Positions 30,307-33,588 of a stretch of 64,000 bases of DNA are shown here, piece after piece (the first letter of the stretch is position 1; each line of letters starts with the position of its first letter). The notes below the pieces were generated by a model. It did not search any database and was not told where the DNA came from. It worked only from the letters and a program-made list of their open reading frames with translations. Origin of the DNA: Aphanothece saxicola GSE-SYN-MK-01-06B (GTDB lineage: Bacteria > Cyanobacteriota > Cyanobacteriia > PCC-6307 > Cyanobiaceae); assembly GCA_019359745.1 (NCBI GenBank), contig JAHHGT010000004.1, forward strand, positions 186,001 through 250,000, in the 5' to 3' direction. The position numbers and the translations under genes were made by a program.

Positions 30307-31206
30307 TCAGGCGGTGGGGGTGCCCGGGGCGCTGGCGACCGTGGCTGTCACGGGGCTGTTCTTCAGCAACCAGGCGTCATAGGCCTCCGGTTCGTGCACC
30401 ACCACGGTGGAACGCATCCCGCCGTGGTACGGGCCACAGAGCTCGGCACAGATGATCGGGTAGCTGCCCGCCTTGGTGGGGGTGAAGGTGAGCACGGTGG
30501 GCTGGCCGGGGATCACGTCCTGCTTGAGCCGGAACTGGGGCACCCAGAAGGCGTGGATCACATCGTTGGCCTTCATGCGAAGTTCCACCGGACGGCCATT
30601 GGGCACGTGCAGCTCGCCGCTGGTGATGTCTCCTTCCGGGTAGTGGAAGATGAAGGCGAACTGCATGGCTGTCACCTCCACAGGCAGCACATTGGTTTCG
30701 TCGGCTCCGGTGCCGATGCCGCCCCAGACCCGGGGGGCCTTCAGGGCGGGGGCTGCCGTGGGGTCCACCCCAGGGCCGGCTGTGCTGACCGAGGCCTCCA
30801 TGGTTTCCATGGGGGGCATCCGGTGCATGGCGGAATGGTCGTTGAGGCTGCTCATGCCGCCCATCCGCTCGTAGATGTCGTAGCTGTAGATGCCCACGAA
30901 CAGGACCACGATCGCGGGGATCGCCGTCCAGACGATCTCCAGCAGCAGGTTTCCCTCGATCGCCAGCCCGTCGGTCTGGTCGCCGGGCCGACGGCGGAAA
31001 CGCACCAGGCTGAACACCACCAGGCCGACGATGCCCAGGAACAGGATCGTGCCGATGCTGAACAGGACACGGAACAGGGAGTCGTAGACGGGGGCGTTGG
31101 CGCTGGCGTCGAGGGGGAGGAGGTCGACGTTGTAGCCCACCCAGAGGCCTGACAGGACGAGCGCCATGCCCACCAGCAGGGTGACCAGGGAAGAGGGAAT
31201 CGGCAC
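30307..31206 (-). CDS. ctaC: Cytochrome c oxidase subunit II
   Basis: A 299-residue subunit that takes electrons from cytochrome c or plastocyanin. An N-terminal anchor (SSLVTLLVGMALVLSGLWVG) and a second helix (LLEIVWTAIPAIVVLFVGIY) precede the cupredoxin domain. The CuA site CAELCGPYHGGM is intact, with the family VTAMQFAFIFHYPE and VIHAFWVPQFRLKQDVIPG. It carries a linker (MHRMPPMETME) rich in Met. GTG at 31206 is chosen because upstream codons run into the regulatory repeat. First gene of ctaCDE. Confidence 0.95.
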   Translation of the reverse strand: MPIPSSLVTLLVGMALVLSGLWVGYNVDLLPLDASANAPVYDSLFRVLFSIGTILFLGIVGLVVFSLVRFRRRPGDQTDGLAIEGNLLLEIVWTAIPAIVVLFVGIYSYDIYERMGGMSSLNDHSAMHRMPPMETMEASVSTAGPGVDPTAAPALKAPRVWGGIGTGADETNVLPVEVTAMQFAFIFHYPEGDITSGELHVPNGRPVELRMKANDVIHAFWVPQFRLKQDVIPGQPTVLTFTPTKAGSYPIICAELCGPYHGGMRSTVVVHEPEAYDAWLLKNSPVTATVASAPGTPTA

Positions 31207-31309
31207 GGTGGCGGCGGCGGGACGGCGCTCGGGAGGGTGGAGGGCTCCTGAGCTGAACAGCTTATGGAAGGCCGTTCGCGGGTCGTGCGTTCGTTGTAGC
31301 CAGAGAAGC

Positions 31310-31324
31310 AATTTCTGAGAAATT
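31310..31324. promoter_or_regulatory. Inverted repeat in R1 (AATTTC/GAAATT)
   Basis: Perfect 6-base arms around TGA. The same arms are kept in R2 around GGA, so the arms are conserved while the loop varies. Possibly a protein-binding site. Confidence 0.45.
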
Positions 31325-31341
31325 TCACATTCAGTTCGCAC

Positions 31342-31361
31342 GATGTGCTGATTCGCACATC
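31342..31361. promoter_or_regulatory. Inverted repeat in R1 (GATGTGC/GCACATC)
   Basis: Perfect 7-base arms around TGATTC. All 20 bases are identical in R2, although mismatches fall just outside them, which fits selection for a dimeric regulator site serving the cytochrome oxidase genes. Confidence 0.55.
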
Positions 31362-31425
31362 TTTGAATGCCTCCAAACTTCCTGGCCCGTCGAGGCCCTC
31401 GCCCAAGCCCCCGATCATGGGCACG

Positions 31426-31439
31426 CCCCCCCCCCCCCC
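31426..31439 (+). repeat. Poly-C tract
   Basis: Fourteen consecutive C, by far the longest homopolymer I noticed in the window. It lies between R1 and the channel-like gene. Tracts of this length are prone to slippage and to sequencing miscalls. Confidence 0.85.
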
Positions 31440-31637
31440 ACGGCCCTGCCGGTGCTGTTGGCCCCCGTTCGTGGAACCAGCCGTTCCTGTGGCGTGATCC
31501 CGCCTTCAGCCCTGGGCAGCGGCTGAACCCCATGGCGACCACGTTTCGCACCCACGCCCAGCTGTGGGCGATCTGTTGCCGGGATCCTTTGATTCTGAGG
31601 TGCCTCACATCCCGAGACGCGCTTGAGCGGAGCCGCC

Positions 31638-32411
31638 ATGCCCTTCACCCACGAGCAGATCCAGAGGCTCCGACACCGCCATCGCGGCTACATCCTGACC
31701 CTCGCCACCGAGGTGTTGATCATTCTGGTGCTGCCGTTCTGTCAGTCGCACGCCTGGGTGCTTTCTCTGCTGCTGATCAGCCTGGCGGTGGTGTTGATCA
31801 CCACGGTGACGCGGTACTCACCCCTGGTCAGCACACGGCCTCTGTTGTACGGCCTCGGTGGCCTGGCGCTCGTCCTGGAGGGGGTGTGGCATCTGGCACT
31901 GGCCTTCGATCCACCGCTGGGGCGCCTCATCACGGTGCCCCACGTGATCGCCTGGCTGCTGTTTTTTCTGGTGGCGCTGGTGCGCAAGGTGAAGACCCTG
32001 GTGCGTGAGCCCTTCGTGACCCTGGCCGTGGTGATGGGAGCCACCTCCGGCTATCTACTGGTGGGCATCGCCGGTGGTGTGATGCTGGTGGCCCTCTGGG
32101 TCCTGCACCCGGGCGCCTTCGACCTTGCCGCCCTGCCGGTGCTTCAGGATCGCAACGCTGACGCCGTGGCGATGGCGCCGGCGCTGATGGCGGCGTCGTT
32201 CATGATCCTGACCACCGTGGGAACGGCGGTGCTTCGCAGCAGCGACGTGACGGGGCAAGTGATCACGGTGGTGATCACCATTTCCGGCCAGCTGTACATC
32301 GCCATCCTCATTGCCCTGATCCTGGGCCGCTTCCACAGCAAGCCTGGGAAAGGAAGGGCCTTGCCGCGGTCCCGTTCCAGTCCGGAGGACCACCAGCCTT
32401 CGATCCGCTGA
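31638..32411 (+). CDS. Ion-channel-like membrane protein with atypical filter
   Basis: A 257-residue membrane protein with about six hydrophobic segments, including ILTLATEVLIILVLPFCQ, VLSLLLISLAVVLITTV and VIAWLLFFLVALVRKV. The last two segments flank a pore-loop-like stretch, ALMAASFMILTTVGTAVLRS, which has the TTVG of K+ channel filters but then TAV instead of YGD. The final helix (VVITISGQLYIAILIALILG) resembles a channel inner helix. ATG at 31638 follows the more upstream TTG at 31623. It lies between the two direct repeats, separate from ctaC and ctaA. Whether it conducts is unknown. Confidence 0.75.
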   Translation: MPFTHEQIQRLRHRHRGYILTLATEVLIILVLPFCQSHAWVLSLLLISLAVVLITTVTRYSPLVSTRPLLYGLGGLALVLEGVWHLALAFDPPLGRLITVPHVIAWLLFFLVALVRKVKTLVREPFVTLAVVMGATSGYLLVGIAGGVMLVALWVLHPGAFDLAALPVLQDRNADAVAMAPALMAASFMILTTVGTAVLRSSDVTGQVITVVITISGQLYIAILIALILGRFHSKPGKGRALPRSRSSPEDHQPSIR

Positions 32412-32506
32412 CCCGGCTCCCCGGCGGTGTTCGCCACCGCTGCTGGGACTCGGGCCTGGCTGGCGATGATGCGTTCGGAGAGGCAAGCCCCCGCACGCGC
32501 CCGTGG

Positions 32507-32598
32507 GTTCGTTGTAGCCAGAGAAGCAATTTCGGAGAAATTTCACATTCACTTCGGGCGATGTGCTGATTCGCACATCTTTCAATGCCCGCTAACTT
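32507..32598 (+). repeat. Direct repeat R2 (right copy of ctaC-ctaA regulatory element)
   Basis: Partner of R1 at 31289-31380, same orientation. It carries the same two inverted repeats: AATTTC-GGA-GAAATT (32528-32542) and GATGTGC-TGATTC-GCACATC (32560-32579). It ends 24 bases before the ctaA ATG, so it probably includes the ctaA promoter. The 95 bases between the channel-gene stop and R2 hold nothing recognisable. Confidence 0.9.
32560..32579. promoter_or_regulatory. Inverted repeat in R2 (GATGTGC/GCACATC)
   Basis: Identical over 20 bases to the palindrome in R1. It is about 45 bases before the ctaA start, a usual position for a repressor or activator site. Confidence 0.55.
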
Positions 32599-32622
32599 GG
32601 GCACCCAGAAGAGCATTCATTC

Positions 32623-33588
32623 ATGGCCGTGGCGCCTTCCGCGCAACCCCTGTCCCGGCCACGGTCCACCAGCGGGGCCGGTTGGCCCCTTCGCCTGGTG
32701 CCCCTGCTCACGGCCCACCTCGTCGTTGCCCTGGTGGCCCTGGTGGCCATCGGCGGCGCCACCCGGGTGATGGAGGCGGGCCTGGCCTGCCCGGACTGGC
32801 CCCTCTGTTACGGGGTGCTCTGGCCGGGCCGCCAGTGGAACCTGCAGGTCTTTCTGGAGTGGTTTCACCGCCTCGACGCCTTCCTTGTGGGCGTGGCCCT
32901 GCTGCTGCTGTTCGCCCTCAGCCTGCGCTTCCGCTCGCGCTTCCCAGGCTGGCTGCCCTGGAGCTCCGGCCTGGCCCTGGCCTTGGTGGCCGTGCAAGGG
33001 GGACTGGGGGCCCTGACGGTGCTCAGTCAGCTGGCGGCGCCCACCGTCACCCTGCACCTGGCCACCGCCCTCAGCCTGGTTCTGCTGTTGAGTGCCATGC
33101 ATCAGGGGCTGGAGCGCCCTGAGCCTGAGGCGGCTGCCGCCGCTGCCAGGTCCCTGCCGCGCTGGTGGCCCGCCCTGGCGGTTCTGGCGGCCCTGCTCGT
33201 CGGTGCCCAGTGCCTGCTGGGTGGGGCCATGGCCAGCCGCTGGGCGGCCGATCTCTGTTTCCAGGCCGGTGAGGGCTGCCGCTGGCTGCTCTTGCACCGG
33301 CAAGGGGCCTACCCGGCGGCCGTCGTGGTGCTGCTGCTTGCCGCCAGCTCCCTGGCTTTGCCGGCAGGCCATCGGCGCCTCCAGGCCCTCGCCTTTGCCG
33401 CTGCCGCTCTGGTGATCGTTCAGGTGGCCCTCGGGGTCGTCACCCTGCGGCTCCAACTGGTCGTCCCCGCCGTCACCGTGGCCCACCAGCTCACCGCCGC
33501 CCTGTTGGTGGGTGTGCTCGGTGGTCTCTGGGGATCGTCGTTCCTGTCCCCGTCCGTTCCTACCCGTCCTGAGGTGGTCCATGGTTAG
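32623..33588 (+). CDS. ctaA: Heme A synthase
   Basis: A 321-residue COX15/CtaA membrane protein that oxidises heme O to heme A for the oxidase. About eight helices. Conserved His-containing helices include [40 protein letters not shown], and the C-terminal [37 protein letters not shown] is the N-terminal signature. It also has the CxxxxxxC-like pair (CFQAGEGC) of one CtaA class. Overlaps ctaB by eight bases. Confidence 0.94.

Follow-up and report, generated by a model that had tools for sequence, protein, structure and literature searches.

The genes ctaC and ctaA, which are transcribed in opposite directions, stand in the window (the whole stretch of DNA analysed, 64,000 nucleotides) beside two copies of their own intergenic control region, and a gene for a channel-like membrane protein lies between the copies. 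The two copies, R1 and R2, are duplicates that have undergone complementary loss: the core is present in both, and each has lost the putative −10 box that the other retains. The account that we consider likely is that a fragment from a genome like those of the genus g23 was joined into the shared cta region, that the region was duplicated, that the copies then split complementarily and that the gene was kept by selection.

In this account, R would be the divergent control region common to ctaC and ctaA, with a core of about 70 bp that contains two palindromes and is flanked on either side by a −10-like box. The ancestor of one sub-clade of freshwater Cyanobium would have received about 1 kb from a g23-like Synechococcus, joined into R and bringing the 3′ end of a TolC-like gene, the channel-like gene and, behind it, the end of a small gene that converges on it. 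The joining event, or a tandem duplication around the same time, would have given a copy of the region on each side of the gene, so that ctaC and ctaA each retained a complete promoter. Complementary loss would then have left R1 with the core and the ctaC-side box, and R2 with the core and the ctaA-side box. Selection would have retained the gene in most lineages; it is damaged in two, and three close relatives lack it, perhaps after R1 had recombined with R2. Had the shared region been single, an insertion would be predicted to sever ctaC or ctaA from part of it, which would explain why the duplicated form is the one observed.

Repeat pair and neighbouring genes

R1 (31284–31380), identified by repeat search and alignment, adjoins ctaC, and R2 (32502–32598) adjoins ctaA; neither is assigned to a strand. 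The right arm of R2 is intact and its left arm is decayed. The two are direct copies in the same orientation, 97 nt long and 91% identical, with nine mismatches over the 97 nt, eight over 92 nt and five over 83 nt. The last figure is that of the earlier note, whose pair of same-orientation repeats is thus confirmed and slightly extended. Both palindromes that it had reported in each copy are perfect in R1 and R2 of the window. Palindrome 1 is located at 31310–31324 in R1 (AATTTC TGA GAAATT) and at 32528–32542 in R2, and palindrome 2 at 31342–31361 in R1 (GATGTGC TGATTC GCACATC) and at 32560–32579 in R2; the positions in R2 were obtained by pattern search, and no strand is assigned to any of the four. 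Palindrome 1 was not found elsewhere in the same genome at up to one mismatch. At two mismatches, palindrome 2 has three further places in the genome, and a reversed pattern used as control has two.

A search of the whole genome (3.25 Mb) at E 0.001 returned R1 and R2 only (E 1.6e-42 and 1.1e-31). A dispersed repeat family, which the earlier note had named as an outcome that would speak against its reading, is ruled out at this threshold. A relaxed search (E 1) added one partial match of 77% on another contig, with a chance-like E of 0.27.

To the left of R1, the minus strand carries the genes for oxidase subunits II, I and III. The first of these is ctaC (30307–31206, minus strand), which encodes cytochrome c oxidase subunit II (Pfam COX2_TM and COX2) and has its likely start at a GTG (31204–31206). 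ctaA (32623–33588, plus strand; Pfam COX15-CtaA) encodes heme A synthase and is followed 3′ on the plus strand by a UbiA-family gene, ctaB by its position. The inserted gene (31638–32411, plus strand), starting with the ATG at 31638 and encoding 257 amino acids, is the sole likely gene between R1 and R2, as the earlier note had it. Other frames of at least 60 amino acids situated mainly in the insert overlap this gene, and the six that were scanned gave no Pfam or PHROGs match. The spacer behind R1 contains a run of 14 C (31426–31439). A similar C run is present inside the damaged gene of genome G090, at the junction of its two out-of-frame pieces.

Distribution among relatives

The sample consisted of 42 genomes of the genus, each searched with R (E 0.01), the inserted gene and CtaA. 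R is present at E ≤0.01 in 17 genomes, the other 25 have no match, and none of the 42 has more than two matches at E 0.01. Two copies with an intact gene between them are found in ten genomes: the genome of the window (G000), G132, G202, G209, G208, G148, G175, G204, G218 and G210. In two more, G090 and G201, both copies are present and the gene is damaged. The G090 gene is split into two pieces in different frames and lacks its last third; the G201 gene loses its frame just behind the start and has an internal gap of about 26 codons. Five genomes (G198, G113, G005, G207 and G203) have one copy and no gene at the site, and in these single copies the left flank of R1 is joined to the right flank of R2. 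Two copies without the gene or a remnant of it were found in none of the 12 two-copy genomes. Members of the clade include Synechococcus sp. CS-1332 and BO 8801, several Cyanobium isolates, Aphanothece cf. minutissima CCALA 015 and Microcystis elabens FACHB-917; BO 8801 and CCALA 015 are two-copy isolates.

A further 33 ctaC–ctaA regions were collected, 13 from the 25 genus members without an R match and 20 from other genera. All 33 are divergent with no gene between, and one region without a gene is therefore taken as the ancestral state. This, together with the existence of one-copy relatives, agrees with the simpler layout proposed in the earlier note, a single shared divergent region. Its assignment of R1 to ctaC and R2 to ctaA is borne out by the flanks of the single copies and by the boxes that are kept in each. 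The arrangement in which all relatives carry both copies and the gene, which it had named as contrary to an insertion, was not found among the 42 genus genomes. The relatives with one copy and no gene (5 of 42 genomes) support its reading of an insertion.

Direct repeats on both sides of a single cassette that is present in some relatives and absent from others could also be the ends of a gene-carrying mobile element, either a target-site duplication or attachment sites. We regard this as very improbable. The repeat is the ctaC–ctaA region itself and is single where the insert is absent. No recombinase was found; the gene has a Pfam match below the cut-off only and none in PHROGs, and the six overlapping frames have none. 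The edges of the insert show no inverted repeat among the 12 listed pairs. There is no other copy in the same genome (E 0.001), each of the 42 genomes has at most two matches (E 0.01), and a 23-nt word from the core has no exact match in viral contigs. In these searches, the unit with its flanking repeats was found neither at a second locus nor next to a recombinase gene.

Complementary loss in R1 and R2

An alignment of 29 copies (12 R1, 12 R2 and five single copies) defines a conserved core (31293–31363) of two palindromes and a variable linker. The left end, AACAGCTTATGG, is common to R1 and the single copies, and the right end, CGCTAACTTG, is common to R2 and the single copies. The left arm of R1 (31256–31282, minus strand) lies outside the 97-nt repeat and includes, within AACAGCTTATGG, a putative −10 element TAAGCT (31264–31259). 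The right arm of R1 (31372–31381, plus strand) is decayed and reads TCCAAACTTC, where the single copies and R2 have CGCTAACTTG. On the ctaA side, R2 keeps the putative −10 region CTAACTT (32592–32598, plus strand), recognised by the conservation of GCTAACTT. Judging by their position and conservation, TAAGCT, read leftward, and TAACTT, read rightward, would be −10 elements of the form TANNNT that serve ctaC and ctaA, respectively. A sigma-70 consensus scan of 31150–32700 gave no promoter-like site, and one terminator-like site was found as compared to 0.9 expected.

Counted by regular expression, the left TATGG box is present in 12/12 R1, 0/12 R2 and 5/5 single copies, and the right GCTAACTT box in 0/12 R1, 12/12 R2 and 5/5 single copies. 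The same pattern is seen in the mean identity to the single-copy consensus, which for the left arm is 0.96 in R1 and 0.51 in R2 (0.91 for the single copies themselves), for the right arm 0.60 in R1 and 1.00 in R2, and for the core 0.92 in R1 and 0.94 in R2. Palindrome 1 is perfect in seven of the 12 R1, ten of the 12 R2 and all five single copies, and palindrome 2 in ten, 12 and four, respectively. Among the 33 further ctaC–ctaA regions, the right box is the same or similar in all 33 and the left box is found in 32 (regular expressions; the list of right-hand motifs was widened after these regions had been viewed, the left-hand motif TATG(A/G) is short, and the counts have no randomised control). 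In the 33rd, CTATGG stands at the very start of the extracted sequence.

In G218, the stretch of 60 bp on the left side of R2 aligns to its counterpart at R1 with a score that none of 500 randomised sequences reached, although its TATGG box is changed. This indicates that the left arm of R2 once existed. This left extension is not significant in the other 11 of the 12 two-copy genomes. The randomised controls here, as for the TolC remnant and the TANNNT counts below, were first-order Markov resamplings rather than exact shuffles.

The G218 alignment also bears on the order of events. The control region might have been duplicated in tandem beforehand, for other reasons, and the foreign gene have landed later between the copies. 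The end product would be the same, and the duplicated stretch in G218 continues to the left of the 97-nt repeat for about another 60 bp, which could result from an ordinary tandem duplication. On the other hand, no two-copy genome (0/12) is free of the gene or its remnant; we think this order of events unlikely.

The encoded protein

The inserted gene is under purifying selection, with a median dN/dS of 0.17 and a maximum of 0.30 (45 clade pairs, first 232 codons). In the model predicted with AlphaFold2 from 27 sequences (mean pLDDT 81.8), the order of the helices fits a six-helix channel with a pore helix. Foldseek ranks the SthK and hERG channels first, with a best E of 0.026 and no match reaching 0.001. 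VIA-align superimposes the Kir pore with a Z of about 7.2 and an rmsd of 2.2 over 96 residues, a channel Z that is not above those of unrelated helical proteins. Complex I subunit H and the Cry8 helical domain, which are also high in VIA-align, were taken as common helical arrangements.

The motif TVGYG is the selectivity filter of K+ channels. The filter position is occupied by TTVGTAV in the inserted protein; the Y is absent in 20/20 aligned proteins and the second G in 19/20 (L038 has SG). Pfam Ion_trans_2 does not match the window protein and matches one of the 20 aligned proteins at E 0.033. None of the curated families searched was reached, DUF3099 giving a match below the cut-off (E 0.03). 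The product has no match in PHROGs and none among PDB sequences at E ≤1. The inserted protein may be called channel-like, with six predicted helices and an altered filter.

Origin of the inserted gene

The closest relatives outside the clade are found in genus g23, with 88% identity in G069 (Synechococcus sp. CS-1328) and 84% in G023 over 257 positions; the next-best relative in a sample of 201 family genomes has 65%. CtaA of g23 is about 65% identical to that of the clade. The median dS between the clade and g23 is 0.31 for the inserted gene, 0.84 for ctaA and 0.68 for ctaC, while within g23 (two genomes) the values for the gene and ctaA agree (0.26 and 0.25). By these comparisons, the gene looks foreign and horizontally transferred from a g23-like donor. 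It is equally possible that the donor was a third, g23-like lineage instead of the sampled g23 genomes.

In G023 the g23 gene and ctaA are 287 kb apart, and in G069 they lie on different contigs. The gene starts 11 bases behind an OEP-family (TolC-like) gene, and a small convergent frame of at most 106 codons ends 14 bases from it, followed by an HlyD-like gene. The decayed 3′ end of the donor TolC-like gene, now non-coding spacer, is located at approximately 31507–31604 (plus strand; spacer positions 127–224 in a local alignment to the G023 tail). The similarity of the 120 nt before the gene to the g23 TolC 3′ end is above that of 300/300 randomised sequences in nine of ten genomes, and not significant in G148. 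The left edge of the remnant corresponds to G023 −178 to −180 in seven of the ten genomes and to −172, −158 and −150 in the others.

For eight genomes drawn from the ten with an intact gene, 25 TolC tails were ranked as the source of the remnant, in a ranking without a randomised control. A g23 tail comes first in seven of the eight, by a single point in G202, and in G132 another tail is the best match. An origin from the recipient's own TolC gene is less likely, since the g23 tail ranks first in 7/8 genomes.

At the other end, the g23 protein terminates with RFHRRPG. The clade proteins continue for about 20 residues, overlapping the end of the small convergent frame of g23, and the last 20 codons of the inserted gene (32349–32408, plus strand) correspond to the sequence behind the stop codon of the g23 gene. 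Behind the present stop, donor-like similarity is weak (above all randomised sequences in 3/10 genomes with G023 and in 0/10 with G069). The remnants of the TolC context give the direction of the transfer, from the neighbourhood of a TolC gene into the cta region. A remnant of the 5′ end of ctaA behind R1, suspected by eye, was unsupported in a profile search (best E 0.56).

The C-terminal extension (32349–32408) is retained in the eight clade proteins aligned. In L190, L200, L201, L205 and L206, the gene is directly followed by a second, distant copy of the family, 26–28% identical (L190 and L206 belong to genus g45). Another paralogue (about 38–44%) is located beside a TolC-like gene in L230, L231, L233, L234 and L236 (G171, G177, G217, G148 and G209); the family thus adjoins such efflux genes in more than one case.

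Expression of the inserted gene

The channel-like gene of g23 may share a transcript with the TolC-like gene, in which case the move into the cta region would probably have cut it from its promoter. The obvious candidate for a new driver is the weakened box of R1; by eye, AAACTT or CAACTT occupies the box position in nine of the 12 R1 copies. No TANNNT is present between palindrome 2 of R1 and the ATG of the gene in any of ten genomes. In this G+C-rich DNA, randomised sequences have a mean of 0 to 0.76 per genome, so that the absence alone is not unusual.

The earlier note had suggested that both copies may still be active, which would place the membrane protein under the signal of cytochrome oxidase. 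Equivalence of the two copies is not supported, as GCTAACTT is missing from R1 and TATGG from R2 in 12/12 each. The missing ctaA-type box in R1, taken together with the lack of TANNNT before the gene (10/10), leaves the functional idea weak. A narrower form of it would have R1 still driving the inserted gene through a weakened rightward promoter, as one oxidase-linked unit with ctaC. The core and palindrome 2 are mostly retained in R1, the AAACTT or CAACTT variants would suit such a promoter, and purifying selection on the gene requires some expression. Against this, the core is needed for ctaC in any case, GCTAACTT is lost in 12/12 R1, and TANNNT is absent between palindrome 2 and the ATG in 10/10 genomes. 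We consider it doubtful that R1 still drives the gene. The inserted gene may be co-regulated with the oxidase through the retained core of R1.

A more far-reaching proposal is that the gene could be tolerated solely through a simultaneous duplication of the promoter, and that the copies then became one-way promoters with a common two-palindrome core, making ctaC, the newcomer and ctaA separately tunable under one signal. If the weakened rightward box of R1 is active, the newcomer would be a recruited member of the oxidase regulon. The proposal seems to us speculative and rather improbable.

History of the locus

The flank trees and the TopA tree both place the one-copy strains G198, G113 and G005 between strains that have two copies. 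G207 and G203 branch outside the two-copy clade. A single insertion without secondary absence was rejected, as monophyly of the two-copy strains has a p-AU of 1e-31 for the flanks (6976 columns) and of 8e-9 for TopA. In the single copies of G198, G113 and G005, the left side has letters of the R1 type and the right end has letters of the R2 type. This would fit recombination between R1 and R2, and the ancestral state would fit equally.

The tree of the inserted gene disagrees in places with that of the flanks. The dS of the gene is below that of ctaA inside clade A and above it inside clade B, and the types of spacer between the gene and R2 do not, by eye, follow the flank tree. The trees, the spacers and the dS ratios show recombination at the locus, so that lateral spread and the replacement of alleles compete seriously with vertical descent and deletion. 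The insertion would then have occurred once and spread among Cyanobium by homologous exchange via the cta flanks, and the one-copy strains inside the clade would never have had it or would have had it replaced, rather than losing it by deletion between R1 and R2. The tree conflict, the spacer types and the low dS of the gene in clade A all favour such exchange, and TopA does not reject a single origin of the three one-copy strains (p-AU 0.0645). The flank alignment, in contrast, does reject it (p-AU 1.4e-6). Moreover, clades A and B and G218 all have the gene or its remnant; the lineages without it are the two basal ones and three strains of clade A, so that presence in the common ancestor is simplest. 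Spread by exchange is a possibility that we take seriously, while holding it to be the less probable course.

Relation to known systems

Duplication–degeneration–complementation (subfunctionalisation) of regulatory elements is an established concept, in which copies of a multi-part control region lose complementary parts and both must then be kept. R1 and R2 show such a loss of complementary parts. The difference is that only the divergent intergenic region is duplicated here, with the neighbouring genes in single copy, and that the split accompanies a foreign gene.

In other bacteria, small variable stretches enclosed by direct repeats are reported to be common, 66 to 94% of the repeats being below 30 bp (PMC2884548). 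As described there, such segments share with this locus a short, non-mobile variable stretch, empty alleles in relatives and recombination between repeats as a possible explanation; they differ from it in that the repeat here is about 97 bp, is a control region and has copies that diverged complementarily. Natural transformation can create tandem duplications by interchromatid integration (PMC3784515). Both this process and homology-facilitated illegitimate recombination (PMC3240628) resemble the joining proposed here in that uptake yields duplications or insertions without a mobile element. Interchromatid integration depends on a repeat that donor and host have in common (PMC3784515); a donor arm with homology to the cta region was not found here, and the age of the junctions precludes a judgement. 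Bacterial bidirectional promoters (PMC12825309, PMC10268837) likewise have one control region and divergent transcription. Their pseudo-symmetrical sites drive transcription both ways, whereas here two −10-like boxes about 110 bp apart would share a core.

No title or abstract opening on this locus was found among the open-licence papers searched; most subscription literature lies outside that scope, and this is weak evidence of absence. At this locus, the gain of a gene, the doubling of its shared control region and the complementary loss of the region's halves can be read together in a compact natural example, with ancestral, derived, decaying and empty states all present among relatives. 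It suggests how bacteria may accept a foreign gene inside a shared divergent promoter with neither neighbour harmed. The two-palindrome core offers a short, testable target for a putative regulator that would control the genes for cytochrome oxidase in this group.

A related, less symmetric form of palindrome 2, GATGTGCGGGATCGC(T/C)CATC, occurs in none of the 20 regions from other genera and in all 13 of those from other members of the genus (L124–L136).
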